DNA from: Candidatus Thermoplasmatota archaeon | Lineage (GTDB): Archaea; Thermoplasmatota; SW-10-69-26; JACQPN01; JAJPHT01 | Direction of reading: 5' to 3' | NCBI GenBank assembly: GCA_035540375.1 | Contig: DATLGO010000050.1 | Coordinates: forward strand, 1 to 64,000 | Length of the DNA stretch: 64,000 nt | Shown here: positions 8,082 to 62,912 of the stretch, in pieces | Layout of the letters: each line of letters starts with the position of its first letter | How positions within the stretch are numbered: position 1 is the stretch's first letter | Made by a program: the position numbers and the translations under genes | The notes under the pieces: generated by a model | Databases searched by the model: none | What the model was told of the DNA's origin: nothing | What the model saw: only the letters and a program-made list of their open reading frames with translations

Positions 8082-8471
8082 GTGGACCCCCGTCGCCGCG
8101 CCCGCATCGGCATCGCCCTCGGCATCATCGGCCTCCTCGCCTTCCCGGCCGTCAACGCCCTCATCCTCTCGGGAGGCGTCTACACGCTGCTCGTCGGCCG
8201 CCTCGGGTCGAACACGCTTGCGAACGTGACGCTCGTCCTGTTCCTCGTCGCGCCGCTTGCGGGTCTCGTCGGCGGCGTCGTGACGCTTCGCGGAGGCCGC
8301 GGCGGGTCCTATTTCCGGGCGGCCGGCATCCTCGGATCGCTCGCGATGCTCATCGTCGTCGTCTCCGTTCTCGGGAGCGGAACGCCGAGCGACGTCACGC
8401 TCAAGATCCTCGTCGCGAGCTTCTGGGCGCCCGCCCTCCTCGCGCTCGGCCTATCGCGGAAGGCCCGCTGA
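8082..8471 (+). CDS. Small four-helix membrane protein, paralogue of 6592-7032
   Basis: 129 residues from a GTG start: V-D-P-R-R-R-A-R-I-G-I-A-L-G-I-I-G. Four hydrophobic segments follow, ending with a short basic tail (LGLSRKAR). The first helix and the glycine-rich G-L-V-G-G-V-V turn match the protein at 6592. I chose the GTG because the frame upstream of it (from 7983) reads through the promoter of the divergent gene. The 3' end overlaps the XPD helicase gene by 21 bp in convergent orientation. Confidence 0.6.
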   Translation: MDPRRRARIGIALGIIGLLAFPAVNALILSGGVYTLLVGRLGSNTLANVTLVLFLVAPLAGLVGGVVTLRGGRGGSYFRAAGILGSLAMLIVVVSVLGSGTPSDVTLKILVASFWAPALLALGLSRKAR

Positions 8472-10631
8472 GGGGCGCCAGAAGCCTCGCACCTCGGCCA
8501 GGAGATCGCGGGCGACCCGCGGCTCGAACCCGTCGGGATACGCGTCCCGGTATGAGCCCCACGCGAACCGCTTGTCCATGAGCACGACGACGCCCCGGTC
8601 CCCGGGGCCACGGATGAGACGACCCGCGGCCTGGAGAACGCGGGACATCGTGGGATAGACGTAGGCGTAATTGCGGCCGTTGGCCTTCCCGAACTTCTGC
8701 TCGTAGTACGCGATGAGGCTCTGCACCTCGAGCGTGGGCGCCGCGAACGGCAGACCCACCACGACGACGCCTTTGAGGAGGTTGTTCTCGTAATCGTAGC
8801 CCTCGCTGAGGCTCCCTCCTTGGACGCCCATGAGAAGCGCGTCCGCGGGATCGTCGCGCAGGCGCGCGACGAGCGCCTGCTTCTCGCTCTTCCCGAGCTC
8901 CCGCGCCTCGACGACGAGGGGCTTCGCGAGCTTGTCGCCGATGCGAAGGCGGACCTCTTCGAGGATGCCGTAGCTCGGGAAGAACGCGGCGACGTTGCCC
9001 GGGATCGCGTCCGCGACGCCCGCGAGGCGCGTGGCGATGCGGTCGTACATCTCGGGCGAGCGCTCCTGGTAGGACGTCGTCACGTCGCCGTCCACGAGGA
9101 CGAGGCGGTTCTCGCGGGGAAACGGCGAGCGGTACGCCTTGAGGACCGCGCGCGCGTCCCCGAGCCCGAGAACGTCGCGCGTCATCTCCATGGGATGGAG
9201 CGTTCCGCTCATGATCACGGAGGCGTGGACGCCCTCGAACACGGGACGCGCCAGCACCGACGGATCGAGCACGAGATACTGCAGCGTCGGAGCGGGGTCG
9301 CGTTTCCACACGCGCGCGAGGCCGCGGCGCTCGATGCGCCAGTTCGCGAGGAACTCGCGCAGGGTGTCGATGCCCCGCGGCCCTTCCTTCTTCTCCTTCT
9401 CGTACGCGGCGCCGGCGGCCTCGAGCTCGTCGACGAGCCCGTCGTAGTCGACGCCCGCGAGCGAGAGGCCCCGCACGCGCCCGAGGTGCTTGGAGACGCG
9501 TTCCATGAACTCGTCGCGCGGAACGAGCCGCTCGGCGCCGGCGAATCCCCGCTTCTCGTCCGCGAAGGCCATGAGGACGTCGTTCCCGACCTTCTTCGGC
9601 GCCTCCGCGAGGTCCGGCAGCAGGTCCTTGAGCGATTCGACGAGGCGCGCGACGCGCGAGGCGTCGATGTCCATGAGCTCGTCGATCGCGTTCGCGATCG
9701 CGTGCTCGTTCAGCTCGAGCGTGAGATGGTCGCGGATGCGATCGGGCAGGTTGTGCGCCTCGTCGACGACGAGGATCACGTCCGAGAGATCGATCTTGAG
9801 GCGCTCCGCGATGCCCGATCTCAGGTCGCTGAAGAAGTAGTTGTAGTCGCACACGACGACGTGCGCCTGCGCGGCGACGTCGAGGGCGGCCTGGTGGGGA
9901 CATACCTCCATGTCCGTCGCGACGATCACCGCGTGCTCGACGTGGTGGATGTCCTTCTTGAGAAGCTTCACGGCCGCGCCGTTGGGATTCTCCCAGTAGC
10001 GGCACTCGCCGCTCACCTGCTGGCGATGGCAGAATTCCGAGAACCGGCGCGAGAACATCTCGCGGGCCTCGCGGCGGGGGCACATGTCCTGCTTGCCGAT
10101 GACGTCGCTCACGACGAAGGGGACGCCGGACTTGCGGCGCATGTCCTTCAGCGTGTCGACCGCGAGGCGATGCTGGGACTGCTTGGAGGTGAGGAAGAAC
10201 ACGCGCTTGCGGTGCTTCAACGCGTACGCGACGAGCGGCGCGAGCGTGGAGACGGTCTTCCCGAGGCCCGTCGGCGCCATCGCGACGAGATGCCCGCCGC
10301 GCTCGGCCGTCTCCTTCACGTCGGCGATGAGCGCGCGCTGCCCTTCTCGGACGCTCGCGTAGGGAAAGAGGTCGAGGCCTGCGGGGACCTCGAGGGTCGC
10401 GGGCGCCATCGGCTCCCTCGGCTGCGGTTCGCGACGCGCCGGCGCCGCCGCGCGCGGAAGCGCGGCCTGCCGGGCCCGCGCGGGCCGCGCGACGGGCATC
10501 GCGCCCTCGCAGCGGGGACACACCGCGTGGTCGCTCCCGGCCCGACGTTTGAGGAGCCCCTTGCACGTCGGGCAGAACACGCTGCCCCCAACCGGGGGAT
10601 CCGGCATAAAGGACGCGGGGGGAGTGGGCAC
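8451..10631 (-). CDS. xpd: XPD/Rad3-family DNA helicase with N-terminal zinc ribbon
   Basis: 726 residues. Superfamily 2 helicase motifs are clear: Walker A in APTGLGKTVS, the DEAH box in LVVDEAHNLPD, and motif VI in VLQAAGRLIRGPGDRG. Between motifs I and II are four spaced cysteines (in MCPRREA, EFCHR, GECRYW and EVCPHQ), matching the XPD iron-sulfur cluster. The N-terminus carries an extra CPTC/CPRC zinc ribbon (Cys20, 23, 38, 41) not found in standard XPD. The enzyme should unwind DNA 5'-3' in repair or transcription-linked processes. Two YkgJ genes lie just upstream on the same strand. Confidence 0.92.
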   Translation of the reverse strand: MPTPPASFMPDPPVGGSVFCPTCKGLLKRRAGSDHAVCPRCEGAMPVARPARARQAALPRAAAPARREPQPREPMAPATLEVPAGLDLFPYASVREGQRALIADVKETAERGGHLVAMAPTGLGKTVSTLAPLVAYALKHRKRVFFLTSKQSQHRLAVDTLKDMRRKSGVPFVVSDVIGKQDMCPRREAREMFSRRFSEFCHRQQVSGECRYWENPNGAAVKLLKKDIHHVEHAVIVATDMEVCPHQAALDVAAQAHVVVCDYNYFFSDLRSGIAERLKIDLSDVILVVDEAHNLPDRIRDHLTLELNEHAIANAIDELMDIDASRVARLVESLKDLLPDLAEAPKKVGNDVLMAFADEKRGFAGAERLVPRDEFMERVSKHLGRVRGLSLAGVDYDGLVDELEAAGAAYEKEKKEGPRGIDTLREFLANWRIERRGLARVWKRDPAPTLQYLVLDPSVLARPVFEGVHASVIMSGTLHPMEMTRDVLGLGDARAVLKAYRSPFPRENRLVLVDGDVTTSYQERSPEMYDRIATRLAGVADAIPGNVAAFFPSYGILEEVRLRIGDKLAKPLVVEARELGKSEKQALVARLRDDPADALLMGVQGGSLSEGYDYENNLLKGVVVVGLPFAAPTLEVQSLIAYYEQKFGKANGRNYAYVYPTMSRVLQAAGRLIRGPGDRGVVVLMDKRFAWGSYRDAYPDGFEPRVARDLLAEVRGFWRPSAGLPR

Positions 10632-50670: not shown

Positions 50671-51039
50671 TCACTTCCGCCCCGCGATGAACGCGACCCC
50701 GTCGATCTTCCGGAACGCCTTGTCGCCGGTCACGAAGGGCACGTCGCGTTCGCGCGCCATCGCGTAGCCGAGCGCGTCCGCGTAGCTGAACCCGGCCTTG
50801 GGGTGGGCGCGCTTGAAGCGGCTAGCGGCCAGGACGTCCGCGTCCGTCGCTTCGACCGCGAGGGATCGCAGGTCGCGGTAGACGGCATTCGCGGTGGCTT
50901 CGTCGCGAAGGCGCGCGAGCTGGACGTGGAGCTCGTAGAGGTGATACAGGCTCGTCGCGGCGTCCTCGAGCACGCCTCGGTAGTCGGGGTTGCCGTTGAG
51001 GATCTCCACGATCGCATACGTGTCGAGGAAGCGCCTCAC
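50671..51039 (-). CDS. VapC-type PIN-domain toxin
   Basis: 122 residues from a GTG overlapping the antitoxin stop (GTGA). PIN residues: FLDTYAIVEIL (Asp), LHVQLARLRDEATAN (Glu), SYADALGYAMA (Asp), FVTGDKAFRKI (Asp). It should be an RNase inhibited by the AbrB-type protein upstream. The pair lies just left of the attC array. Confidence 0.87.
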   Translation of the reverse strand: MRRFLDTYAIVEILNGNPDYRGVLEDAATSLYHLYELHVQLARLRDEATANAVYRDLRSLAVEATDADVLAASRFKRAHPKAGFSYADALGYAMARERDVPFVTGDKAFRKIDGVAFIAGRK

Positions 51040-51260
51040 TCGGCATCCTCCGCGCGGATCGCGTCCTTGACGGCCTGCGCGTCGAGCTTCTTGTTCTTGA
51101 ACAGCCCGAAGAGGTCCTCCAGGCGTCGCGCCTTGCGGACCTCGAGGATCACCTCATCGCCCTCACGGAGGCCCTCGGCCTTGAGCGCCTCGGGGGGAAT
51201 CACGGCGGCGAGGCTCGAGCCCCAGCGGCGGACGGTGGACCGTGTTTCAACCATCATCAC
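51036..51260 (-). CDS. AbrB/MazE-type antitoxin
   Basis: 74 residues. VRRWGSSLAAVIPPEALKAEGLREGDEVILEVRK (split as WGSSLAAVIPPEAL and GLREGDEVILEVRK) is the swapped-hairpin AbrB fold. The C-terminal part (LFGLFKNKKLDAQAVKD) should contact the PIN toxin. GTG 51260, ATG 51257 and ATG 51254 are all in frame. A TATA-like box (51279-51286) and a perfect palindrome (51262-51278) lie directly upstream, fitting autorepression. Confidence 0.88.
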   Translation of the reverse strand: MMMVETRSTVRRWGSSLAAVIPPEALKAEGLREGDEVILEVRKARRLEDLFGLFKNKKLDAQAVKDAIRAEDAE

Positions 51261-51287: not shown

Positions 51288-51654
51288 ATGTCCACCGGAA
51301 GAGGCACCGGACGCCGTCGAGGGCATTACGGATCAGCGGGCTCGTCCGTGTGGCCGCTGCCCCAGGGGTTGCCGGTAGCTAGGAGGGAGGCACTGAACGC
51401 CTCCTTCTACCTGGAGCCCGAGCCTTTCCTCTCGACGGCCAAGTGGGAGAACGCTTCCGCGTCGCTCGGCGTCAAGGACGAGGGAAGCGGGTGACGCGTG
51501 ACGGCGCCGAACCGCGCAAGCCACCCGAGACAGGATCTCTCGGTCCGAAGGCTGAAACGCCTCAGGCGGGCGAGGCGGGTCATCGCCGCGGCTCATCAGG
51601 CGCCTCATTCGTCCGTGCTGCCGCGCCGATCTCTATGTCTGCCGTTCGGTGGGC
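51288..51654. other. Gap without a convincing gene, left edge of the attC array
   Basis: About 370 bp between the AbrB antitoxin promoter and the first attC-like site. Frames on both strands are proline/arginine-rich with no domain. It could be a decayed end cassette, but no core site was found inside it. Confidence 0.35.
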
Positions 51655-51726
51655 GTCTGACGACGGAGTTAAGTCGCCGCGAAGGCGGTCCAGCGCCCGA
51701 GCGGTTAGCTGAACGACTTGCTAGAC
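51655..51726 (-). repeat. attC-like site 1 (degenerate)
   Basis: Ends GTCTGAC (51655-51661) and GCTAGAC (51720-51726). Each differs by one base from the ideal AAC/GTT triplet. The left half (CTGACGACGGAGTTAAG) resembles attC sites of bacterial cassettes, and the right half (GAACGACTTGCTAGAC) matches the aadA-type end. Probably inactive; it terminates the array. Confidence 0.55.
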
Positions 51727-51831
51727 CCCATGCCTTCTCTCCTGTCCTTCGGGTCGAGTCCTGGGTCGGCCAGGCCGTCGGGAGCTTGGCTTCGCGGTGG
51801 GCTTCCTCACCTTCTGGGGCCCCCCGAAAGA

Positions 51832-51840
51832 CTTATTATG
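51832..51840 (+). promoter_or_regulatory. TATA-like box for the inverted toxin-antitoxin cassette
   Basis: CTTATTATG, 24 bp before the ATG at 51860. A perfect palindrome GTTAC-GAGAT-GTAAC (51845-51859) fills the space up to the ATG and is a probable operator. Confidence 0.6.
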
Positions 51841-51859
51841 ATGCGTTACGAGATGTAAC

Positions 51860-52102
51860 ATGGAGTTACTCGACATGCCCAAGGCGGTCATCCACCTCTC
51901 CGACCGGGCGAACCGGGTGGTCAACGTCGTCAAGGCCAAGGAAGGCCTGAAGGGAAAATCCGAGGCCGTGGAGCGCATCGTCGAGGCCTACGAGGAATAC
52001 ATCCTGGACCCGAACTTCCGCCCTGAATTCGTGGACGAAGTCGAGAAGACCCGGAAGGGACGGTTCCGCAAGGTGAACAAGCTCGGCGACCTCCTCGAGT
52101 GA
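51860..52102 (+). CDS. Antitoxin (DUF2683/RelB-like)
   Basis: 80 residues. IHLSDRANRVVNVVKAKEGL and KSEAVERIVEAYEEYIL form a ribbon-helix-helix domain; the tail FVDEVEKTRKGRFRKVN matches archaeal RelB/DUF2683 antitoxins. It runs opposite to the other cassette genes, as toxin-antitoxin cassettes with their own promoter can. The TATA-like box and palindrome directly upstream suggest autoregulation. An internal ATG at 51875 is an alternative start. Confidence 0.8.
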   Translation: MELLDMPKAVIHLSDRANRVVNVVKAKEGLKGKSEAVERIVEAYEEYILDPNFRPEFVDEVEKTRKGRFRKVNKLGDLLE

Positions 52103-52374
52103 AGATGGCGTGGCAGTTGGAGGTCTCGCCGCACTTCGAGCGCGACTATCGGAAGCTCTGCAAGAAGGATGCGGTCCTTCGAAAGGCCGTGGACAACAAG
52201 GTTGCCCAGATCCTGGAACAGCCTCTCCACTACAAGCCTCTTCGGGGTCCGCTGAAAGGCGTACGGCGCGTTCACGTCGCAAGCTCCTTCGTCCTCCTCT
52301 TCGAGCCGAATGAACCGACCGGAACCGTCCGCCTTCTGCGACTCGCGCATCATGACGAAGTCTATGAGACATGA
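52099..52374 (+). CDS. RelE/YoeB-type mRNA interferase toxin
   Basis: 91 residues from a GTG that overlaps the antitoxin stop; an ATG two codons in (52105) is also possible. EVSPHFERDYRKLCKKD, KPLRGPLKGVRRVHVASSF and VLLFEPNEPTGTVRLLRLAHHDEVYET (read as separate blocks) are typical of the ParE/RelE fold, with the basic and histidine residues near the C-terminus expected for ribosome-dependent mRNA cleavage. The toxin makes loss of the cassette costly, a recognised array-stabilising role. Confidence 0.87.
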   Translation: MKMAWQLEVSPHFERDYRKLCKKDAVLRKAVDNKVAQILEQPLHYKPLRGPLKGVRRVHVASSFVLLFEPNEPTGTVRLLRLAHHDEVYET

Positions 52375-52392
52375 TCGCGGGGCGGCGGGCGC

Positions 52393-52473
52393 GGATAACG
52401 ATCGCGCTCAGCGGCCCGAAGCGAGCGGGCGAAGGCTGCTCGCGAAGGGTCCGTCTTCAGCGCACGGTTGGGC
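52393..52473 (-). repeat. attC-like site 2
   Basis: Ends GGATAAC (52393-52399) and GTTGGGC (52467-52473). GCGCT...AGCGC and CCC...GGG inner arms pair with small bulges; at 81 bp it is the longest in the array. It closes the methyltransferase cassette, 21 bp after the stop. Confidence 0.65.
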
Positions 52474-52494
52474 AGGCTACTCATGCCTTTTCGT

Positions 52495-53304
52495 CTATGC
52501 CCGCGCAAGCAGAACGTGCGTGCGCATCGGGTACCTGAGTTCACCGTTGGCCACGTAAGGCTCGAGCATCGCGCTCACGTCCTTGAGAAACGCGTCGCGC
52601 CCATGCTCGGGCAGAAGCGCCACAGCGTGCCGAGTGGAGGGTGAACCCAGGGTCATGCCGTCGATGAACGATTGGATGGACGCGAAGTGAGAGACTCCGT
52701 CCTCAGTGCGAAGTTCGATCGCGGAGAACCCCGCACGCGTCGCCGCGTCACGGATATCCTCCGGGTCGGCAAACCAACAGGCCCGCCTCGCCGCCGAAGC
52801 GTCGACCCCCTGACGTTCCAGGGCTCTAACCACGGCGTCATGACCTTTGTTGTCTTCGAGCGGTCCCCAGATGCTTGCCGCGAGCCGACCCGACGGCTTG
52901 AGCACGCGGTGGATCTCGGCGAGACCGGCCTGACGATCCGGAATGAACTGGAGGCCCTGGAGGCAAAGACAGAGATCGAACGTGGCGCTGTCGAAGGGCA
53001 TCTTGAGCGCGCTTGCGCAGTGCCACTCCATCGGAATATCGAAGCCCTGCGCCATTTTTCGTGCCACCTCGACGACGCCCGGATCGATGTCCAGGCCCAC
53101 CACCTTCCCTGCCGGGCCAACGCCGCGCGCGGCCACCCTTGCCCCAACACCCGTGCCACAGGCCACGTCCAGCACGCTTTCTCCCCGTTGCGGGGCGGCC
53201 AACCCCACCACACGTTCTGTCCAGTGAGCGAACATCCCCGGGACCATGTGTTTCTCGTACGCCTCGGCAGCCGTCGTGTCGATCGGGTGGTTTGCTTGGG
53301 ACAT
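52495..53304 (-). CDS. SAM-dependent methyltransferase (cassette gene)
   Basis: 269 residues. Motif I VLDVACGTGVGARVAAR, second strand VVGLDIDPGVVEVARK, and FDLCLCLQGLQFIPDRQ with EIHRVLKPSGRLAASIW identify a UbiE-like class I methyltransferase. The long C-terminal region (SFIDGMTLGSPSTRHAVALL) resembles enzymes acting on small molecules in bacteria. Substrate unknown. The codon use is less GC3-biased than in core genes here, fitting recent arrival. It lies between attC-like sites 2 and 3. Confidence 0.87.
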   Translation of the reverse strand: MSQANHPIDTTAAEAYEKHMVPGMFAHWTERVVGLAAPQRGESVLDVACGTGVGARVAARGVGPAGKVVGLDIDPGVVEVARKMAQGFDIPMEWHCASALKMPFDSATFDLCLCLQGLQFIPDRQAGLAEIHRVLKPSGRLAASIWGPLEDNKGHDAVVRALERQGVDASAARRACWFADPEDIRDAATRAGFSAIELRTEDGVSHFASIQSFIDGMTLGSPSTRHAVALLPEHGRDAFLKDVSAMLEPYVANGELRYPMRTHVLLARA

Positions 53305-53345
53305 CTTCGGTATACCTCCCTTCTCGCGAGTTGCTTGGACGGACT

Positions 53346-53408
53346 GCTTAACGACTGAGCTAAGCCGCTCGACCGGTGGGAGAGGTCGGCTTTAGCGATT
53401 TGTTAGAA
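53346..53408 (-). repeat. attC-like site 3
   Basis: Ends GCTTAAC (53346-53352) and GTTAGAA (53402-53408); 63 bp. On the minus strand the crossover core reads GTTAAGC, a perfect GTTRRRY. Inner arms GCTAAGCCG and CGGCTTTAGC pair with one bulged T. It follows the stop of the 53465 gene by 56 bp. Confidence 0.85.
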
Positions 53409-53464
53409 CGCGCGGTGTATTCTCATAGGCCTCCACCGGCGAGGAGCGACCATCGACTGGCCCG

Positions 53465-54790
53465 TCAGTCGGTGAGCTCAATGGTGTCACCAACCGCTCG
53501 GGCGTTTTCCGCCCAAGCAATCACACGGATTGCACCCCACGCGGCATCCAACCCCACCACGCGCCCAGGCTGATCCATCGAGTGGGTGACTTCGTGTCCG
53601 GGAGGGAGTTCTTCGACGAGAAGACCTTCCTCAATCGCTGTATCGGGCAGGCCGTGACCGTGGAAGGTGGCGCTTATCTGTACGTTTCGGGCGGCCTGTT
53701 CTCCCCTGTTGACGATCTTCAAGAAGAGGGTGCCGTCGTGGGTGTCGCCTTGGAGGCTGGATTCGACGGGGAGCTTGGTATGGCTCGTTCCGAGACGACC
53801 CCAAAAAAGGAACGTCGCGACGGCGATGACGGGCGCGATGATGAGGAGATCTCCCCATCCAGCGCCTCCGAAGACTCCGATGCTCCCTGTGTAGTAGTAG
53901 TCCTCGACGTGCTCGGTGTGGTGCATGATTTCAGTCAGGACATCGACTCCCACCAGACTGGCGAAGTAAGTCACCGAGAACACGGCGGCCACCGAGACCA
54001 TCGTGTTGGCCGTGCGCTTGTAGGTCAGATATCCGTAGATGGCGGCCGGGATGGTCAGCCAGCGCGCGTCGAGGAGGAAACCGACACCCGGCACCACGAT
54101 GGTGAATGCGGCCCCAACGATGGTTAGGACGATCAAGGACAGCCACCAGTGGCCCTGTTCCTCTTCGTCCACGTGCGCAATCCCGGTTGACGCGAGCGCG
54201 ATGAAGAAGAAAATTAGGGTAGGTCCGGCGACTGCAACGCCTGTCACGAGGGGTACCTCCCAGTAATCTTGGCGAAGGAACAAGGTCCGAAGGAAGTCGT
54301 CCAAGCCTCCCGCCGTTCCGTCCGGCGTGAGCGGGATGTACCCCGACCGGACCGTCACATATCCACTCCCCGGAGCACCACCTGACGGGCTGGCGGAGTT
54401 GTCAATAACGAGAACGTAGGGTTGGTTCGCGGGAACTCTGAAGATGTGGCGGAGGGAGGTTTTCTGGAGGAAGCTCTCGGTCGGAAAGTACCGACTTGAA
54501 GCTCCTTGGTAAGCCTCGTATTGGATCTGGCTGAGGAGGAAGATGTCGATCGGACCGCTGGCCTGGATGAGGAAGTCGTAGCGGGTAACCCCCGAGGCGT
54601 CATCTAACTCATAGAACAGGTGAACACCCGGCTCAAGGGTCCGCCCCTCAGTCTCCGGGACGTAGATGTCAGATTGCGCACTCGCCATAGGCAGCGCCAG
54701 CATCACGGACGCGAACGTCATACTGATGAGCAGCAGTCTCACGATGGACGCACGTCCATCCCGTGTCTTATACCGAGCCATTCGGTCCAC
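53465..54790 (-). CDS. Exported-domain/multi-helix membrane protein (cassette gene)
   Basis: 441 residues: signal (about 18-38), external beta domain (about 40-165), then five to six helices (about 175-330) and a soluble C-terminal domain (about 345-441). The external part has YDFLIQASGPIDIFLLSQ, then F-R-V-P-A-N-Q-P-Y-V-L-V-I-D-N-S, matching in plan the chromosomal 7036-7998 protein. The C-terminal LFLKIVNRGEQAARNVQ...GLLVEELPPGHEV is an external CARDB-like fold. It looks like an archaeal lineage gene captured as a cassette. An ATG three codons in (54781) is possible. Confidence 0.78.
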   Translation of the reverse strand: MDRMARYKTRDGRASIVRLLLISMTFASVMLALPMASAQSDIYVPETEGRTLEPGVHLFYELDDASGVTRYDFLIQASGPIDIFLLSQIQYEAYQGASSRYFPTESFLQKTSLRHIFRVPANQPYVLVIDNSASPSGGAPGSGYVTVRSGYIPLTPDGTAGGLDDFLRTLFLRQDYWEVPLVTGVAVAGPTLIFFFIALASTGIAHVDEEEQGHWWLSLIVLTIVGAAFTIVVPGVGFLLDARWLTIPAAIYGYLTYKRTANTMVSVAAVFSVTYFASLVGVDVLTEIMHHTEHVEDYYYTGSIGVFGGAGWGDLLIIAPVIAVATFLFWGRLGTSHTKLPVESSLQGDTHDGTLFLKIVNRGEQAARNVQISATFHGHGLPDTAIEEGLLVEELPPGHEVTHSMDQPGRVVGLDAAWGAIRVIAWAENARAVGDTIELTD

Positions 54791-54851
54791 CCTCTTGCAC
54801 CCTTAGCAGCGCCCAACCGCCTCGGCCTGAACTGCACACGGTTGCAGCGCG

Positions 54852-54911
54852 TTCTAACGACTGAGCTCACCCGCGCCGCGAAGCGGCGTCGGGTGGAGCA
54901 ATTTGTTGGGC
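54852..54911 (-). repeat. attC-like site 4
   Basis: Ends TTCTAAC (54852-54858) and GTTGGGC (54905-54911); 60 bp. Arms CACCCG/CGGGTG and CGCCGC/GCGGCG pair perfectly around a GAA tip, with a single extrahelical T between them on the plus strand. That bulged T is the strand-selection hallmark of folded attC sites. The C-terminal 14 codons of the ATPase lie inside it. Confidence 0.9.
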
Positions 54912-56123
54912 GGCGTGGGCGGCCCACTTGAGAAAGAACGCGAAGAAAGGGTCGGTGATGTGCAGCTTCTGCTCGTCCGTGTCCCAGTCAAGAACGGGGG
55001 TTGAGGCCTCGTCGCTCGCGGCAATCTCCGCCATCCGTTCCAGCACCCTCGTCACCTCATGGGCCTGCGGGATATTATCTGCGAGAATCTCCCGAATCGC
55101 TGCGCGGAGGGTTTCATACTCAACCTTCGCCAGGCCGGGTGCGACCTTCGCCAATCCTAGCAGCACAACCTCGTAGATGTCTGCAGTGCCGCCGGCCTTC
55201 AGGGGCCGGTCCATTCTATCTGACCGCTGTCGGGGTCCCCGCGACAGTTTATCATAGATCACGCGGCCCGTTCCTTCTGCGACCTCGCGGAAGAGTTTGT
55301 CGTTAACGTGACCAACCGGCAAGGGATCTTTGGAAGTTTCCTCAATCCCATTTTCTCGCGCCAACTCTCGGCAAAACTCCTGCATGAGGTGCGGACTGCT
55401 GTAGGCCTCGCCAGCTAGTCTCAATGCGACTTCAGGAGCCACCTTCACGTTGAGGAGGGGGAAACCCAATTGGGGAATCTGGTGGAGCTCCTCCGTGGAC
55501 CAAGATGGGACATCAATCGTTTCAATCCGGCCTGTGATTTCCCGTTCGACTTTCACTGCGTCATAGCGGCGGTGGGGGATTGCAATCAAGACCACTGGGA
55601 TCCCCTCGAAAACTAGGGGCTTGAGGGCCCGAACGACCGCTCCTTGGACGTCTCGACTGAGATAGTGGAAATCGTCAATCACCAGGGGTGTCCGAGTCCG
55701 ACGGAGCTGAGCGATGGCGGCAGGACGTGGAGCGAGGGCCCGGGACCGCGTCTCAGACCTTCCCCGAGCGTGTGTCATGGCGCCGCTGGCTTCGGCCTCT
55801 ACCTTCGCCACCAGTGGGACTCCTGCATGGCCGGAAACGCTTCCTGAAAACGTCCCCTCGGTGGATCGGCTAGCCTCAGCCGAGACCTCGGTGTAGCCGG
55901 CGATAGAATCCACTACCAAGGACCAAAGATCCTCCTCAACCTTCACCGATCCAGCATCAATCCAGATGGCCTGGTCACGTGGGAAAACCTTGGTAGTGAG
56001 AACGGTCTTCCCGGACTTGGTCGAACCGGTCACTGCGACCAGTTTGCACAGATTGTCTTTGACAGCGGCCAGCCGTTTTTCAAGATGAAGGGCGGAACGG
56101 GGCACGTACGTTAATTGCGGCAA
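54867..56123 (-). CDS. AAA/STAND-like ATPase (cassette gene)
   Basis: 418 residues. Walker A is VTGSTKSGKTVLTT (near residue 35), Walker B is PLVIDDFHYLS (near 155), and the C-terminal DEQKLHITDPFFAFFLKWA is the helical/winged part seen in ATPases of conflict and archaeal ATPase families. The middle (about 75-130) is an unusual low-complexity insertion. It may be a single-gene antiviral or regulatory ATPase; this is inference from family and context. Its last codons extend into attC-like site 4. Confidence 0.82.
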   Translation of the reverse strand: MPQLTYVPRSALHLEKRLAAVKDNLCKLVAVTGSTKSGKTVLTTKVFPRDQAIWIDAGSVKVEEDLWSLVVDSIAGYTEVSAEASRSTEGTFSGSVSGHAGVPLVAKVEAEASGAMTHARGRSETRSRALAPRPAAIAQLRRTRTPLVIDDFHYLSRDVQGAVVRALKPLVFEGIPVVLIAIPHRRYDAVKVEREITGRIETIDVPSWSTEELHQIPQLGFPLLNVKVAPEVALRLAGEAYSSPHLMQEFCRELARENGIEETSKDPLPVGHVNDKLFREVAEGTGRVIYDKLSRGPRQRSDRMDRPLKAGGTADIYEVVLLGLAKVAPGLAKVEYETLRAAIREILADNIPQAHEVTRVLERMAEIAASDEASTPVLDWDTDEQKLHITDPFFAFFLKWAAHAAQQIAPPDAASRRG

Positions 56124-56298
56124 GCCGCCCGGTACGAATACGCTGGTCGTCCGGTAGGATATCCTCCAATGTCCTCACGATCTCGGTCGGTCAAGCGCCC
56201 AAAGTGGGCACCCCGAGCAATCCATGCGACGTTGTTAGGCCGTTTATTTGTTTGCGGTCCTTGGCCCTCTTCGACGCCACCCCCGCGTGGGGTATGAC

Positions 56299-56358
56299 GC
56301 CCAACGACCGAATTGAGCCGCGCCGCAAGGCCACCTCGGCGCGAATGAATGGTTATCC
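56299..56358 (-). repeat. attC-like site 5
   Basis: Ends GCCCAAC (56299-56305) and GTTATCC (56352-56358); 60 bp. On the minus strand the crossover core is GTTGGGC, a perfect GTTRRRY. Inner CGCGCCG and CGGCGCG pair. It follows the PIN toxin stop by 23 bp. A lone core-like GTTAGGC at 56234-56240 may mark a lost small cassette. Confidence 0.82.
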
Positions 56359-56381
56359 CGCACCTCCGTCGCGGCAGGGCT

Positions 56382-56795
56382 CTATGGCTCCTTGAGGAAA
56401 TTCTTCAAGAAGCTTGCCGCAGTCATGATTTGGATGCCCTCGTAGTTGCCCACTTCGAGGAGGGCTTTGTCGCCGCTGACGATGTAGGAGGCCCTTCCGT
56501 CGATCGCCGCGCTTACGATCATGTCGTCGTCAGGATCACGCGGCACGATCCCGGGCCGTTCGCGCGCGTCAACGATCTCGGCTACCTCGGCCACAACCCC
56601 AACAACGCGCAAGGCCTCCGCCGAGCTGAGCTTGAACTTCGGTCGACGCAGGACGCTCCCAAGTTCTTCGAGAATCCGGGGCGAGGTTACCAAAATGGCG
56701 TGGCCCGCGAGGCACCGGCGGAGGAATTGATGTGGTGGCCCGTTGGCGATGAACGCGCTGATGAGCACGTTGGTGTCGGCGACCACCCGCAGCAT
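56382..56795 (-). CDS. PIN-domain toxin (COG1569-like, cassette gene)
   Basis: 137 residues. RVVADTNVLISAFI supplies the first PIN aspartate, SPRILEELGSVLRR the glutamate, DPDDDMIVSAAIDG the next aspartates and VSGDKALLEV the last. This PIN_3-type ribonuclease is commonly paired with AbrB or RHH antitoxins; here the AbrB gene lies 9 bp upstream. The pair forms one cassette between attC-like sites 5 and 6. Confidence 0.88.
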   Translation of the reverse strand: MLRVVADTNVLISAFIANGPPHQFLRRCLAGHAILVTSPRILEELGSVLRRPKFKLSSAEALRVVGVVAEVAEIVDARERPGIVPRDPDDDMIVSAAIDGRASYIVSGDKALLEVGNYEGIQIMTAASFLKNFLKEP

Positions 56796-56804
56796 GGTCT
56801 TCGC

Positions 56805-57089
56805 CTACTTCCGGCGCGAACGCTGGGCGCGGTGCGCCTTGACCTCGGCGTCGACATCGCCCTCGGTCAGGCCCGACGTCCGCTCCCGAATATCAGCGAA
56901 CGTCCGCTCGAACTCCCGCTCGAGGTCCGGGAGAGCGAGGCGCTTCAGAATGATGGTGTCGCCTTGACCCAGCACGACGAACTTGGCGCGCTCCCCGAGC
57001 CCGAGGCGGTCCCGGATGGCCTTCGGGATGACGACTTGCCCCTTCTCCCCCATCGTGGTCACCTCGACCTCGTCTACGGCTTCGGGCAT
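56805..57089 (-). CDS. AbrB-type antitoxin (cassette gene)
   Basis: 94 residues from ATG 57089. VEVTTMGEKGQVVIPKAIRD and GLGERAKFVVLGQGDTIIL form the AbrB DNA-binding hairpin; the C-terminus (FADIRERTSGLTEGDVDAEV) is helical and basic at the end. The longer frame to 57146 crosses the palindrome, so I take 57089. A TATA-like box at 57121-57130 and a perfect 8-bp inverted repeat at 57091-57108 lie directly upstream. Confidence 0.85.
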   Translation of the reverse strand: MPEAVDEVEVTTMGEKGQVVIPKAIRDRLGLGERAKFVVLGQGDTIILKRLALPDLEREFERTFADIRERTSGLTEGDVDAEVKAHRAQRSRRK

Positions 57090-57090
57090 T

Positions 57091-57108
57091 TTTCCTACCC
57101 GTAGGAAA
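57091..57108 (-). promoter_or_regulatory. Perfect palindrome, probable operator of the AbrB/PIN cassette
   Basis: TTTCCTAC (57091-57098), CC, GTAGGAAA (57101-57108). Placed between the TATA-like GTAAAAATAG (57121-57130) and ATG 57089, overlapping the expected transcription start. Confidence 0.65.
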
Positions 57109-57228
57109 GTTGTTCCACGAGTAAAAATAGCTTTCGGCCAGGCCAACCGGATGCAGCGACGCCGGACAGGATCGACGCTAGACAGGTGAGCCGATACGCG
57201 ATAGGCGCACGCTGAGCGTCAAATCGCG

Positions 57229-57299
57229 GGATAACGACGAATGTCAGCCGCCCGAGGCGCGCGAAGCCGCCGTGACTCAGCTAGACCGCCTTGTTAGCT
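57229..57299 (-). repeat. attC-like site 6
   Basis: Ends GGATAAC (57229-57235) and GTTAGCT (57293-57299); 71 bp. Inner arms around GCCGCC...GGCG and GTCA...TGAC pair with bulges. The HNH stop codon (57298-57300) falls in its end. Confidence 0.7.
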
Positions 57300-57759
57300 A
57301 GCCGCCGTTCTTCAGCCGGTTCCATGCGTCGTCGATGACCCGCGCTACGGTTTCGACCTCCCGCCGCCATGCCGCCCTTTGCTCCTCGGTGACCGGCGGG
57401 GTCACAGGCTCGTGGAGCGCCACCCAATTCTCGATTCGGTCCAGCCGTGACGCAAGGATTTCTTGTTGGGCGGCTGATTTGATCTCGACGAACCGACGCC
57501 AATCCATGTCTCTCTTCTCGTGCTCGTTGCATTTCGGGCACGCCGCCACCCTGTTGCTGATGTGATTGAAGCCGCCAACATCTACGGGGACAAGGTGGTC
57601 TGCATGCCATCGGCCACCCAGAGCGCCCTCGCAATAGGCGCAGCGGTTGTCAAAGAACGCCGCCATGGAAAGCCGCTGCTCCTTGCTGATGTCTGGTTCC
57701 AACGCTGCCCAGAGGACCCGGCGAGAGATGTTCTTAACCCATGCTGGATGGAGTGGCAT
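57298..57759 (-). CDS. HNH endonuclease (cassette gene)
   Basis: 153 residues. Zinc ligands and active-site residues are visible in NRCAYCEGALGGRWHADHLV (CxxC, then H-x-D-H), VGGFNHISNRVAACPKCNEH (N, CxxC). Such single-domain HNH nucleases cut DNA and are frequent integron and defence genes. ATG 57759 stands 10 bp from the end of attC-like site 7 with GAGG just upstream, an arrangement typical of a cassette start. The C-terminal helices (VETVARVIDDAWNRL) are of unknown role. Confidence 0.87.
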   Translation of the reverse strand: MPLHPAWVKNISRRVLWAALEPDISKEQRLSMAAFFDNRCAYCEGALGGRWHADHLVPVDVGGFNHISNRVAACPKCNEHEKRDMDWRRFVEIKSAAQQEILASRLDRIENWVALHEPVTPPVTEEQRAAWRREVETVARVIDDAWNRLKNGG

Positions 57760-57768
57760 CGTATCCTC

Positions 57769-57828
57769 GGCGAAGGATTGAGCTAACGCGCCGAGCGAAG
57801 CGAGGTCGCGTTGAGCGATTTGTTAGTC
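57769..57828 (-). repeat. attC-like site 7 (crossover core altered)
   Basis: 60 bp ending GGCGAAG (57769-57775) and GTTAGTC (57822-57828). Inner GAGCTAACGCG pairs with CGCGTTGAGC, and GAGCGAAGCGAGG forms the tip. On the minus strand the crossover core reads CTTCGCC, with C for the essential G, so it may be locked. The stop codon of 57823-58158 falls in its other end. Confidence 0.6.
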
Positions 57829-58158
57829 AGCAGCCGTGTCGCTCTCAGGCAGGGGGTTGCGGGAGACGAGCCCCCATAGTGGCTGGCCATCCTCGGAGGC
57901 CCGTGCCCCAATATCAAGTAGAAGGCGTTTCGTCGTTTCCTCGTCCGCTCCAATAACGTGCATTAGGGTGTCGAGCCTGCGCCATTGGAACTTCTTGGAT
58001 TGCAGCAGTTTCTTTAGCAAGTCTTTGCGAGGCTTGTCTCGCCGTTCCTCCGCCTTGTTCGCAAGATGGGCACGCAACCATTCCACGGAAACGGTTGCAA
58101 CCGAACCCACGATTGCCCCCCCAACTCCGATCAAGGCAATGAGCACGTTCTCGTTCAT
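57823..58158 (-). CDS. Small one-pass membrane protein (cassette gene)
   Basis: 111 residues. One N-terminal helix (NVLIALIGVGGAIVGSVATV), then a charged coiled-coil-like region (HLANKAEERRDKPRKDLLKK) and a cytosolic domain (DTLMHVIGADEETTKRLLLDIGA). Proteins of this plan are common in bacterial genomes; the function is not known. The codon use is less GC-rich than core genes here. It lies between attC-like sites 7 and 8. Confidence 0.72.
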   Translation of the reverse strand: MNENVLIALIGVGGAIVGSVATVSVEWLRAHLANKAEERRDKPRKDLLKKLLQSKKFQWRRLDTLMHVIGADEETTKRLLLDIGARASEDGQPLWGLVSRNPLPESDTAAD

Positions 58159-58302
58159 ACAACTCTCCCCAATTGCACCTTCATAGCGGTGCCGCTGGAC
58201 CGAATGGCGGCGACGAACTCAAAGGTTGCGAGGCCCGAACCCGCATTCGTCGATCCGGACGCCCGATAACGCAAGGGTGCAACCCAAAGGCCTTCAGCGG
58301 CT

Positions 58303-58362
58303 GACTAACGACTGAATTGACCCGCGCGGCGCAGCCGCGTCGGGTCGAATGAATTGTTAGGC
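58303..58362 (-). repeat. attC-like site 8
   Basis: Ends GACTAAC (58303-58309) and GTTAGGC (58356-58362); 60 bp. Arms GACCCG/CGGGTC and CGCGGC/GCCGCG pair perfectly around a GCA tip, with a single extrahelical T as in site 4. Best-preserved site beside site 4; it is the upstream limit of the clear array. Confidence 0.9.
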
Positions 58363-58530
58363 CCCCATAGAGCATGCCATCCGAGGCAGATAACCGGATT
58401 CACGCCGCCTCCGCACGTCCCTTTCGGGAGACGCTCCATGGGAGCGAGGTGCGCGTCGAAATAAGGGCCACGCCGCGCCGCTTCATTTCTCGGGACGCGA
58501 AAAATGGTCGCCGTACTAACGAGGGGGCGC

Positions 58531-60489
58531 CTAGCTACCGTTGCCGTCGACAGGTTGCTCTTCGGCATCAGCAAGCCATTCCGAAGGCAGGAGACCCTTC
58601 GCGCCCGTCCAACGGTCGAGGACGTTCCGTTTGAAGCTTTCTGCCTTGAGCTCCGCGTGCTCGAGGATGATGATCTGCGGTCCTTTCGGAGCCTCTGCAA
58701 ATTCCGCGAGAACATCCACGATCTTTGTGATCGGTCTTGTTTCTGCATCTTCGCGGGGATTTTCGGGCGACCACTCCACCTCGGGAGGGAACCAAGCTTG
58801 GCTCGGCTGATCGATCATGATGAGCGCGGGAACTGGTGAGTCGTGCTCGCGGAAGTAGGTGTGGAGGCCGACCACCGAGATTACATGGTAGCCGACCCAA
58901 TTCGCTGCGCTCCCGATTTCGCGCAAGGGGGTCCATCGCTTGTCCGAAGGCGAATCGTTCACCTCGACCTGGAGCGTGTTCACATTGAGTCTTGTAGGTG
59001 CGCCCCGATACTCGACGTTGATCCGCTCGGTGAGATCCGTCATCGTGTGACTGATCTTGGTAAGGGCCTGGGAGAGCTTTGACGCCGTCGCTTCGACTCC
59101 GACGGACTCTTCGAGTTCCTTGATTCGCCGCACGAGCTCATCGTACTCGGAATCCGGGGGTGCGAGGGAAGGGCGCATGGCCGCGACGTACTCCTTCACC
59201 CGACCCCTGAGTTCAGCACGAGCCACAACCTGACCGCGCAGGGTCGGGTGTGCAATGTCTCGGAGCGCAGCCTCTCGTCTGGCGCGAGCGTCCGACGCCT
59301 TCCGGCTGTGCGTCTGGAGCTGCTGTCTCAGGCTTTCGCGTTCGGTTTCGAGGTGAGATCGCAGGCGTGTGGGTGCGCTCTGTGTTGCCTCGAGGGCGAC
59401 GACTGTGTGACGCAGCGTCTGTTCGATCTGATCGGCCTGCACGTGGCCGTCGCCGCAAAGCGGGCATATTGGCGCGTCCGTGGGTTCGGGAAGCAAGTCC
59501 TTGAATCGAAGACGTGTAAGCTGTTGAGCCGTAGTTTCGTGACTCTGCTCGCTCACTGTCAAGAAGCGATCAATATCATCGAGCTGCGCGCGGACTAGGT
59601 TCATGTTCATCCGCGCAGTCTCCTCTTCCGCCTCGAATTCCGTCAGATCGACGTTCGCCGCAGGGGGAAGAGCCTCGGCCCCGGATGGAATTGCGGAAAG
59701 GATGCGAATCAGCTCACCAAGGTCTCCAGGCTCGGGCCGTCCCGGGAGGAGTTCGAGTGCGACAGCCTGACTCCACAGGGAACGACCGCGCTCCCAACCC
59801 TGCAAGCCAAGACGTTCCTGCTCTTTTCGTTCCCGGTCAATCTGATTCCGACGCACGCGAAGCGCGCGAAGTTCGCGGACTTTCGTGAATTCGGCTTCTG
59901 TTGTGATCCGGAGAAAGTATGGCAGCGCGTCTGCGACAGCCCGCTTTCTGAAGGAATGGTCTAGCCCGGGGAAGAGTTGTTCGGGGTTGTCAATGATGTT
60001 CTGAGGTTGAAAGAGGAATGGCGTGCAGTGACGGATGTTAGGTGGATAGCGCTTTTCAGCGTCAGAGTCTAGGTCGTTCGTGATTATAGGCAGCGCGGCG
60101 ATCTGGGTAAATGCTGAAAGCTTGTCTTTTGCAAAGTCCTTCGTCCACTCAGTCTTGGGGGGCTGTGAGGGGAACGGGGTCTCGCGCCGCTCGAGCATGT
60201 AGACTGTGGACGGGACGTCTGCACCCTCCTCCGGCAACGCCCGAACAATGGCGAGTTGGCTTTCGCCATTTGTAAGGCGAACGCCCACGTGCGAGACTCG
60301 TGTGCGGATCCCCTTTGGGACGTCACAAACATCGCTTAGTAGGCAGTAGTCTACGATTCGGATGAGCGCGCTTTTCCCTCGGCCGCTTTCCCCGGTGATG
60401 ATATTGAGGCCGTCGGTGCGGAACTCGAGGGTGTGTCGCTCCCCCGTCCGCCGGCGATAGATTGCGATGCTATGGAGGCGCCAACTCAT
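58531..60489 (-). CDS. ABC-3C system ATPase (DUF3732, Rad50-like)
   Basis: 652 residues. The P-loop is IITGESGRGKSALIRIVDYC (near residues 31-50), a long coiled coil holds a CPLCGDG zinc-hook-like motif near residues 340-345, and VPALIMIDQPSQAWFPPE near the C-terminus is the Walker B/D-loop region of SMC/Rad50-type ATPases. DUF3732 is the ATPase of ABC-three-component systems predicted to act in phage or plasmid conflict. It overlaps the middle-component gene by 4 bp (ATGA, 60486-60489). Confidence 0.9.
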   Translation of the reverse strand: MSWRLHSIAIYRRRTGERHTLEFRTDGLNIITGESGRGKSALIRIVDYCLLSDVCDVPKGIRTRVSHVGVRLTNGESQLAIVRALPEEGADVPSTVYMLERRETPFPSQPPKTEWTKDFAKDKLSAFTQIAALPIITNDLDSDAEKRYPPNIRHCTPFLFQPQNIIDNPEQLFPGLDHSFRKRAVADALPYFLRITTEAEFTKVRELRALRVRRNQIDRERKEQERLGLQGWERGRSLWSQAVALELLPGRPEPGDLGELIRILSAIPSGAEALPPAANVDLTEFEAEEETARMNMNLVRAQLDDIDRFLTVSEQSHETTAQQLTRLRFKDLLPEPTDAPICPLCGDGHVQADQIEQTLRHTVVALEATQSAPTRLRSHLETERESLRQQLQTHSRKASDARARREAALRDIAHPTLRGQVVARAELRGRVKEYVAAMRPSLAPPDSEYDELVRRIKELEESVGVEATASKLSQALTKISHTMTDLTERINVEYRGAPTRLNVNTLQVEVNDSPSDKRWTPLREIGSAANWVGYHVISVVGLHTYFREHDSPVPALIMIDQPSQAWFPPEVEWSPENPREDAETRPITKIVDVLAEFAEAPKGPQIIILEHAELKAESFKRNVLDRWTGAKGLLPSEWLADAEEQPVDGNGS

Positions 60490-60959
60490 TCCGTCACTTC
60501 CAGGTTGAAGAGGTTCGGTATCGTCTCTTCGGGTTCCTTTCCAAGGAACCTGCCGAACTTGTCCGCGATGTCATAGATCTCGCGGTATTCGTCGAGCTCC
60601 GACGGTCGAAGCTTGCCGGACGCAGAGATTCTCCCTTCCTGCAAGACCAAGATGCCACGCGAGATACCGAGGCGGAGGGCGGGCCAGAAGTACTTCACGT
60701 TCGACCGCAGCGCTTCCGCATTCTGGGCCTGCCATTGTGGGTGGTTCTCGAACAAGTTAGTCAGCTTAGCGTTCCACGCCTTGGGGATCTGGTCGCGAAC
60801 TGACTTTGAGGCGAGGTAGGGGATAGAGAGGATAGCCCAGGGAATCGGGATGCCACGTCCTTGTTTGCGGGAGTATCCTTTCGCCACCGCGTGGATCACG
60901 ACCGCCGCGAAGGCGGGGTTCTTGTGTGCGTACCGGTCCAATGCGACTCCTTCTTCCAT
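60486..60959 (-). CDS. ABC-3C system middle component
   Basis: 157 residues. Beginning with NPAFAAVVIHAVAKGYSRK and GIPIPWAILSIPYLASKSVRD, then LTNLFENHPQWQAQNAEALR, it fits the 'three component ABC system middle component' family that links the ATPase to the effector. A helical/winged fold is likely, with no catalytic site visible. It starts 1 bp after the stop of the upstream gene and overlaps the ATPase gene, so the three are one unit. Confidence 0.87.
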   Translation of the reverse strand: MEEGVALDRYAHKNPAFAAVVIHAVAKGYSRKQGRGIPIPWAILSIPYLASKSVRDQIPKAWNAKLTNLFENHPQWQAQNAEALRSNVKYFWPALRLGISRGILVLQEGRISASGKLRPSELDEYREIYDIADKFGRFLGKEPEETIPNLFNLEVTE

Positions 60960-62159
60960 CTATTCATCTCCGAGGAGTTCGCGGTACCGCGGATGCCAGC
61001 CAACGAGTCGGCGCTGCGATAACACGTGGTAGTTGCCGGCGATCATCTCTGGGTCAGAGTCATCGGGGCCGAGGCGGCCGCGTGCGCGGAGGCATTGGTA
61101 GTAAACCCGCTTTCCTCCGCGAATCTCATCGGTCTCGCCTGCGTGTTCACCCTTCGCGGAGTTCCATTGGAGGAGGAGTTGACGCTCAAACTGGTCCACA
61201 CGGTCCTCACCGAGCAGCCCCTCGTTCAGCCAGTACTTCCGGTGGCGGTTGGCCTCGGCATACGTGCTGATGGCGCTGACTAGCTCGTCGCGCTCTGTCT
61301 TGATCAAGTTGAGTTGTCTTAGGTAGGTGGCGTTCGTGCTCAGCTCTGCCTCAAAATCGATGGCGTCTGGAGGCAGTCGCGGCAGGGAGACAATCGTGAA
61401 CTTGTCTCGCAGGAGACCAAGCTTCTGCCGACATTCGGCCACCGTGATGAAGCATCCGGTGGGCGAGATTCTCTCCCGAATTTTCATCTCCACCCAGCCA
61501 ACGAGTTCCTCTGCGGCTTCCGTGACGGCGCGCTCGTGGAAGCTCCTGGCGAGAAGGCGCTGGACGATCTCTTCCCGCGCCCGGTTGATAGATGGTTGTC
61601 CGGCCTCCACTCTGAGTGCGGCGACGATGCGACGGCGCTGGTCGTCCGTTGCCTCGGTCCATCTCTTGCACGCAGGCGCGTTTTCTACCGAGGGATTCAG
61701 ACATGCTCCATGCAGGGCAATGAGCAGGGCCTCCCGCTCGGCCTCCGTGGTGGAGGCTAGAGTGAATGGCTCGAAGACACTGCCCGGTTCGATATCGTTC
61801 GTCGATGAAAGGACGAACTTGGTCATCGCTGTTGTGGATGGGTCGTCAAGAAGGTCGAGCCAGACCGGTGCGCTGCCCCACCATGCTCGCGACCTGACGG
61901 TAATCCTCCCGTCGTTTAGAGAATGCTTATTTTGGATCGACGTGCAGCAGATTCCGGACGAGGTGAGGACGACGACGTCGTTATTGACCTCCAAACCTAC
62001 CTGCGCATGAGCATCGGTTTCGTCGAGGAGAACGCAGAGCATACGCTGGTTCTGCCAGAGCGTTCCCGCCGATGGGCCTGCGGCACCATGGTTCGTGGTC
62101 ACGAGTTGACATGCAAAGGTTCCACGGTTCTTAGTACTGCCGCTGTGCACTTCTGCCAT
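60960..62159 (-). CDS. ABC-3C system C-terminal-domain protein (effector component)
   Basis: About 399 residues. The N-terminal region (AHAQVGLEVNNDVVVLTSS, then CCTSIQNKHSLNDGRI) resembles the nuclease-like N-terminal module with a Q-x-K motif found in these systems. The rest is helical (REEIVQRLLARSFHERAV, DELVSAISTYAEANRHRKYW) and corresponds to the ABC-3C C-terminal domain. It should be the component that senses or damages invading DNA or RNA. ATG 62159 is chosen; a GTG at 62174 adds five residues. First gene of the operon. Confidence 0.8.
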   Translation of the reverse strand: MAEVHSGSTKNRGTFACQLVTTNHGAAGPSAGTLWQNQRMLCVLLDETDAHAQVGLEVNNDVVVLTSSGICCTSIQNKHSLNDGRITVRSRAWWGSAPVWLDLLDDPSTTAMTKFVLSSTNDIEPGSVFEPFTLASTTEAEREALLIALHGACLNPSVENAPACKRWTEATDDQRRRIVAALRVEAGQPSINRAREEIVQRLLARSFHERAVTEAAEELVGWVEMKIRERISPTGCFITVAECRQKLGLLRDKFTIVSLPRLPPDAIDFEAELSTNATYLRQLNLIKTERDELVSAISTYAEANRHRKYWLNEGLLGEDRVDQFERQLLLQWNSAKGEHAGETDEIRGGKRVYYQCLRARGRLGPDDSDPEMIAGNYHVLSQRRLVGWHPRYRELLGDE

Positions 62160-62194
62160 CGGACAGATTTCCACGGCGAGTGCAAGTGCGCCGC

Positions 62195-62252
62195 GTGGAA
62201 CTTCTGGAGCTTATCCGGGCCCCCGACCGTCGATCTTTAGACGCTGTTAGAC
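62195..62252 (-). repeat. Possible degenerate attC-like remnant
   Basis: 58-bp span ending GTGGAAC (62195-62201) and GTTAGAC (62246-62252). The right end resembles site 3 (GTCG..CTTTAG), but inner arms pair poorly, so this is only a candidate. If real, the ABC-3C operon would be inside the array. Confidence 0.25.
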
Positions 62253-62866
62253 ATGCTACCGGTTTTCGACTGGCTTGGGATTCGCTGTTGTCCCCTTGTC
62301 GTCCGAAATGTCCGTCGCGGGATGCACGTCGGGGACGTATGGGGGCGTCCCTCCTGCCGCACGCCAAGGCGTGGACGGTGCCTCGGGGGCCTAACTTCTC
62401 GTTCACCTGTTTTTCCACCCATCGGCCGCGGGCCCTACCCGCAAGCGTCTCGGGTCGCCTTACAGCGAGCCATCGCCCACGCGGGCTATCAAGTCGATCC
62501 CGGGTTCACTTTCAGTGATTTCTGGACGGGCATTATCTGGACCGCGTGATCCTCCGCTCCTCATATGTCCGAGGCTTGGCGCATGCCTTCGCGCTTTTTC
62601 TTCAGGCGCCCGGCGTGGTCGAGCCTGTCCGGGCGAGGCAGTTTCTCTTCAGGCCCGGCAAAGTCATGGGCGTCGGTTGATTCGACGCCCGGCGGGTCGA
62701 CGACGCTCTCCGACCCCTCCTGGGCGAGATTGATCGGAGCGAGGATGCGCGTGCGGCAGGTTGAGGAGGCGCGCAGCCTCAGGAATCCCCCTCCCGGCCC
62801 ACCGGATGGCGACCGCCTGGAAAGGGCCGACCGGCCCCCCTCGACGCTCAGCCCCGTGTGGCCGCT
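62253..62866. other. Gap without a convincing gene before the thermosome
   Basis: About 610 bp. One plus-strand frame ends (62460-62549) with the protein-like stretch VALQRAIAHAGYQVDPGFTF and stops at 62549, which may be the truncated tail of a gene displaced by the island. No integrase, tRNA or attI-like signal was seen. Confidence 0.35.
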
Positions 62867-62871
62867 ATCTT

Positions 62872-62880
62872 CTTATAGAA
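62872..62880 (+). promoter_or_regulatory. TATA-like box for the thermosome gene
   Basis: CTTATAGAA, centred 37 bp before ATG 62913, giving a short leader that contains AAGGTGTGA as a ribosome-binding site. Confidence 0.6.
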
Positions 62881-62912
62881 GCATTGGAATGCCTCGCGCC
62901 AAGGTGTGACCC

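Follow-up and report, generated by a model that had tools for sequence, protein, structure and literature searches.

An array of integron gene cassettes, mobile units of the sort through which bacteria exchange antibiotic-resistance genes, occupies positions 51655-62395 of the window, the whole 64,000-nucleotide stretch under analysis, and with its about eight cassettes it lies in the interior of one assembled contig of 84,902 bp. We consider it very probable that this is a sedentary array of the CALIN type, accompanied by a decayed intI remnant, in the chromosome of an archaeon with high GC content. The CALIN definition calls for two or more attC sites that a model recognises, with under 4 kb between them, and here the largest spacing between adjacent sites is 1.4 kb; it also calls for imperfect inverted repeats with extrahelical bases in the recombining strand and a common polarity, all of which were observed. 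No further arrays were found in the 3.13-Mb genome.

The attC sites

A covariance model (R1) was trained on seven bacterial class 1 attCs only, all taken from plasmid records (aadB, aadA2, qacF, catB3, sat2, aacA4 and dfrB10). This model matched sites 8 (58303-58362, E 3.4e-16), 4 (54852-54911, E 6.5e-11), 5 (56299-56358, E 9.1e-8), 3 (53346-53408, E 2.9e-6) and 7 (57769-57828, E 1.1e-5) on the minus strand, at the coordinates noted earlier from the sequence, and gave weak matches on the same strand to site 1 (51655-51726, E 0.045) and site 6 (57229-57299, E 0.18); its best match outside the sites across the 64 kb had an E-value of 1.7. Positive controls outside the training set, including the OXA-1 and VIM-1 attCs, were recovered with scores comparable to those of the window sites. 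A second model (R2), in which the strong window sites were included in training and sites 1, 2 and 6 were left out, returned these three at E 0.0097, 0.054 (site 2, exact coordinates 52393-52473, minus strand) and 0.0019, values which are rough because a few rows of the training alignment are duplicates or antisense; all eight sites were the top minus-strand matches of this model. Sites 1, 2 and 6 are weak when taken singly, site 2 being the weakest of the eight, and no Rfam family matched the attCs. The initial annotation of eight sites alternating with units of one or two genes is borne out.

Folding of the plus strand confirmed the bulged T that had been described in sites 4 and 8, each of which forms two arms, and added a bulged G. 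Both sites align end to end with the attCs of the aadB, sat2, qacF and catB3 cassettes at about 78-86% identity (BLASTN), site 4, which overlaps the stop codon of cassette 4, being ~80% identical to the aadB attC and site 8, the strongest and the attI-proximal one, reaching 86% identity with plasmid attCs. When the 60-bp sites were aligned with class 1 attCs, 94% of the pairs of the L helix were kept and seven pairs were changed on both sides, a covariation signal that vanishes when the partners are shifted by 1-3 columns.

Of the AAC/GTT cores, attributed earlier to all sites, both are intact in only six of the eight; site 1, at the distal end of the array, is degenerate (AGC/GTC), and site 7 carries a mutated R' core (CTT for GTT). 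The HNH cassette next to site 7 (57298-57759) has no matching 5' border there, and with the GTT core of the site gone (57769-57828) this region looks like a deletion scar. All sites share one polarity, the attC top strand being the minus strand, as had been claimed; the same claim placed the cassettes on the minus strand and fails for one toxin-antitoxin pair (51860-52374), which is on the plus strand. An opposite polarity for site 2, raised because of this plus-strand neighbor, was rejected since the model matches the minus strand only; by eye, the arm that holds the extra bases is the same one in site 2 as elsewhere in the array. The identity of the attC sites, their polarity and the cassette logic are supported by the independent models, the alignments with bacterial attCs, the covariation and the circular-border test described below.

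Cassette borders and contents

When a cassette is excised as a circle, its R'' core is paired with the R' core from the start of the same cassette, and in the array that R' belongs to the next site. We accordingly took the R'' flank of each cassette i and compared it with the reverse-complemented R' flank of site i+1. Five of the eight cassettes (3, 4, 5, 7 and 8) showed border complementarity, of 12, 8, 10, 10 and 11 bp respectively; class 1 arrays used as controls gave 12, 9, 12 and 13 bp, and the borders of cassettes 1, 2 and 6 are decayed or rearranged. The agreement between physical neighbors within one site is much poorer (a sum of 50 matches against 68; P about 2e-4 by permutation, to be read with caution, as the border at 62395 was located by a core-motif search beyond the array and then entered into the permutation).

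This last border, the 5' border of cassette 8 at the array/attI junction, has the core GTTAGGC at 62389-62395 on the minus strand, its sole occurrence on that strand of the whole contig, with 11 bp complementary to the R'' of site 8. The partner sequence, GTTAGGCCCCC, lies at 62395, 220 bp upstream of the gene for an LmuA-like protein. This makes cassette 8 a 4.1-kb unit with three genes, at about 58.30-62.39 kb, and the array reaches from 51655 to 62395, an extent which had been set too short in the initial annotation.

The cassette contents were assigned by protein-family searches. Cassette 1 carries an antitoxin-like protein (DUF2683; PF10884, below cut-off) and a ParE-type toxin (PF05016), inverted relative to the array (51860-52374, plus strand); all other cassette genes are on the minus strand. 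Cassette 2 (52495-53304) encodes a SAM-dependent methyltransferase (PF13649, E 9e-23), with relatives in haloarchaeal and bacterial plasmids by tblastn, and cassette 3 (53465-54790, 12-bp border match) a membrane or exported protein, as judged by eye, whose best relative is in an archaeon of the same family (E 4e-36), no relatives being found in the plasmid collection. Cassette 4 (54867-56123) encodes an AAA ATPase of the candidate defence family PDC-S59 (PADLOC, E 2e-31), whose relatives in the plasmid collection are bacterial, the best one in Niallia at 33%. A PIN-domain toxin with a MazE/AbrB-type antitoxin (PF13470, PF04014) makes up cassette 5 (56382-57146), cassette 6 (57298-57759) encodes the HNH endonuclease (PF01844), and cassette 7 (57823-58158, 10-bp circular border match) a small protein with no Pfam match.

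The three genes of cassette 8 encode an LmuB-like ATPase (58531-60489; DUF3732 and AAA_23 by Pfam; PADLOC LmuB, E 3e-88), an LmuC-like middle component, MC3 (60486-60959; PF20131, E 7e-14; weak PADLOC LmuC match, E 1.7e-4), and an LmuA-like effector with the CTD7 domain of ABC-3C (60960-62174; PADLOC LmuA, E 6e-32; PF20283). By homology to LmuA, LmuB and LmuC, this cassette is a complete three-gene operon of the Lamassu type II kind with a predicted antiviral role. Toward its N-terminus, the LmuA-like protein (60963-62174, minus strand) contains GLEVNNDVVV...QNKH, by eye like an E-x-x-D ... QxK nuclease motif.

Integrase remnant, host and alternative explanations

At 51386-51571 on the minus strand we detected a remnant of about 62 codons corresponding to the N-terminal, SAM-like part of an integron integrase, with one in-frame TAG (TIGR02249, E 8.2e-4), the one match of the genome to the integron-integrase model. 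Within NCBIfam, integron-integrase models alone matched it; compared with IntI1 it scored 92, against a maximum of 55 in 2000 shuffles, and tblastn against 72,556 plasmids gave two matches, both of them unannotated intI genes or pieces beside cassettes. A Pseudoalteromonas plasmid, NZ_CP077771.1 (near 611368-612291), carries an intact integron integrase (TIGR02249 over cut-off) which small genes adjoin and which has no entry in the gene table of the plasmid collection. Directly left of the remnant lies a PIN/AbrB toxin-antitoxin pair (50671-51260, minus strand) with a GC content of 0.68, nearer that of the host; the pair may once have been a cassette or may belong to the host. The CALIN label of the initial annotation stands, with no intact intI above cut-off in the 3.13-Mb genome (97% complete, not closed), where the same search recovered the IntI of the control records; its claim that the integrase is lacking has to be amended for the decayed N-terminal piece.

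With sites, polarity, borders, remnant and flanks observed, we infer the order of insertion, the position of attI and the source of the integrase as follows. An integron integrase would have inserted the cassettes one by one, by recombination between a folded single-stranded attC, the recombining strand being the plus strand with its extrahelical T and G, and a double-stranded attI near 62.4 kb. The Lamassu type II-like operon, adjoining attI, would be the newest cassette, and the degenerate attC at 51.7 kb would mark the oldest. The integrase would have been lost afterwards, leaving its N-terminal fragment, and the cassettes today would therefore need an integrase provided in trans in order to move. 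From the attC polarity and the border of cassette 8, a putative attI is expected, by position only, at 62396-62520 on the minus strand; around 62.4 kb no attI was recognised by sequence and no intI adjoins. The position of the remnant counts against this scheme: lying at the attC-distal end, it is not next to the predicted attI, and its 5' end points toward the array. An inversion could be the reason, or a second integron that has since vanished.

The array could alternatively be part of a complete, active archaeal integron with ongoing capture, its intact intI lying elsewhere or in an assembly gap. Six sites with both cores and five cassettes with perfect borders of 8-12 bp do suggest recent insertion, and the genome is not closed at its 97% completeness, but no integron integrase above cut-off was found either in this genome, by a search that recovered the control IntI, or in 390 genomes of the phylum, and we regard such an active system as unlikely.

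The host context of the sedentary array was evaluated from its flanking genes. On the right, a thermosome gene (archaeal chaperonin; TIGR02339, 787.9 bits against a cut-off of 671) begins at 62913 on the plus strand, 0.5 kb past the array border, and runs through the end of the window at 64000 to contig position 64574; its product is 76% identical to that of a same-family genome (G037), and in a tree the gene groups with others of its order and class, close to Thermoplasmatota, which is probably the phylum of the host. On the left, a Rad3/XPD-type helicase of the host lineage (8451-10631, minus strand; TIGR00604, just over cut-off) is 61% identical to its counterpart in the same genome. A location in the archaeal chromosome is supported, as far as gene content can tell, by these host-lineage genes on both sides within a single 84.9-kb contig, and the archaeal flanks proposed from the first reading were in this way substantiated. 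Just upstream of the thermosome gene and outside the array border, the truncated archaeal RNase P RNA family (RF02357) matches positions 62736-62900 (plus strand) over its full length but weakly, at 21.9 bits against a gathering score of 60. The parts of the contig that were scanned hold no tRNA gene and so give no sign of a tRNA-borne island.

GC content is 0.60-0.61 in the island compared with 0.71 in the flanks. This drop inside the array, together with the resemblance of the attCs to gammaproteobacterial class 1 sites and the fact that no relative was found with the island at this place, would suit a real but bacterial array joined to archaeal contig ends by an assembly or binning chimera. 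Nevertheless, such a chimera would require two false joins, at about 51.3 and 62.4 kb, since the array is interior to the contig with host-lineage genes on both sides; moreover, the best relative of cassette 3 is in a same-family archaeon and attC arrays occur in another genome of the phylum, and we judge this explanation quite improbable. Empty sites were sought in relatives and none was found: the thermosome gene of G037 starts a contig, and the relatives of the same order are not syntenic here.

Among the 390 genomes of the phylum, two others had attC matches. One of them (G076) carries a larger set than ours, at least 13 attC sites over three contigs, near contig ends (C6, 57.9-66.6 kb; C36, 1.2-4.4 kb; C8, 64.6-66.2 kb; loci L150, L151 and L154), with no match to the integron-integrase model in that genome.

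Finally, hairpins are plentiful in high-GC sequence and three sites are individually weak, but a reading of the sites as chance palindromes or terminator-like repeats between genes was rejected, with next to no probability left to it, in view of independent-model E-values down to 3e-16, the shared polarity, the near-identity to known attCs and the circular borders, and for the five strong sites it is refuted by R1, R2 and those borders.

Comparison with known integrons and defence systems

Integron arrays in archaea are already known, and the present locus is an unusually well delimited and firmly anchored one. Ghaly et al. 2022 (PMC9668308) described integrons in 75 archaeal MAGs, mostly CALINs, in which toxin-antitoxin and phage-resistance cassettes were common and proteins with signal peptides enriched; recombination of archaeal attCs was tested in E. 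coli, and in ~7% of the MAGs the contig with the integron also bore an archaeal marker. Our array resembles those integrons in its cluster of attCs with no intact intI, in an attC structure compatible with class 1 and in its toxin-antitoxin and defence-like cassettes, and differs from them in having host-lineage genes on both sides, a decayed piece of intI and a three-gene Lamassu-like cassette.

The evidence for archaeal integrons has so far come almost entirely from MAG contigs with no archaeal markers, whereas here a fully delimited array lies between host-lineage genes, with a decayed integrase beside it and a complete predicted antiviral operon as a single cassette. The locus makes testable both the capture of cassettes by archaea themselves and the transfer of defence systems between domains by integrons. 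On the evidence of the array, the earlier statement that bacterial-style gene capture reaches this lineage can be retained as history. It is conceivable, though on balance doubtful, that this archaeal lineage captured cassettes of both bacterial and archaeal origin in its own chromosome through integron recombination, including cassette 3, built from a gene of the lineage, and a whole Lamassu operon; if this were true, integrons would carry antiviral systems of several genes from one domain to another, and may also build cassettes from archaeal genes.

With the attCs of class 1 resistance cassettes (aadB, sat2, qacF, catB3) the sites share R and L boxes, an extrahelical T and G and a length of 60 bp, at 78-86% identity over 53-60 bp, and the plus strand of sites 4 and 8, with its bulged T and G, corresponds to the bottom strand of the class 1 attCs; unlike class 1 integrons, the array has other cassette contents and no intact integrase. 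Defence cassettes are also known from Vibrio integrons (Darracq et al. 2025 and Getz et al., as far as the review PMC12409362 relates them). Going by that account, our array is similar to the sedentary chromosomal integrons of Vibrio, which serve as defence biobanks, in its enrichment in defence-like and toxin-antitoxin cassettes, and dissimilar in its size (eight cassettes against about 180), its archaeal host, its missing integrase and its large multi-gene defence cassette.

Our search of the freely accessible literature found no report of a Lamassu operon as an archaeal integron cassette. Cassette 8 is like the Lamassu type II and DdmABC (ABC-3C) systems in its predicted SMC-like DUF3732 ATPase, its small MC3 protein and its effector with an ABC-3C C-terminal domain; unlike those systems, this predicted defence operon is carried by a cassette of an integron array within an archaeal chromosome.
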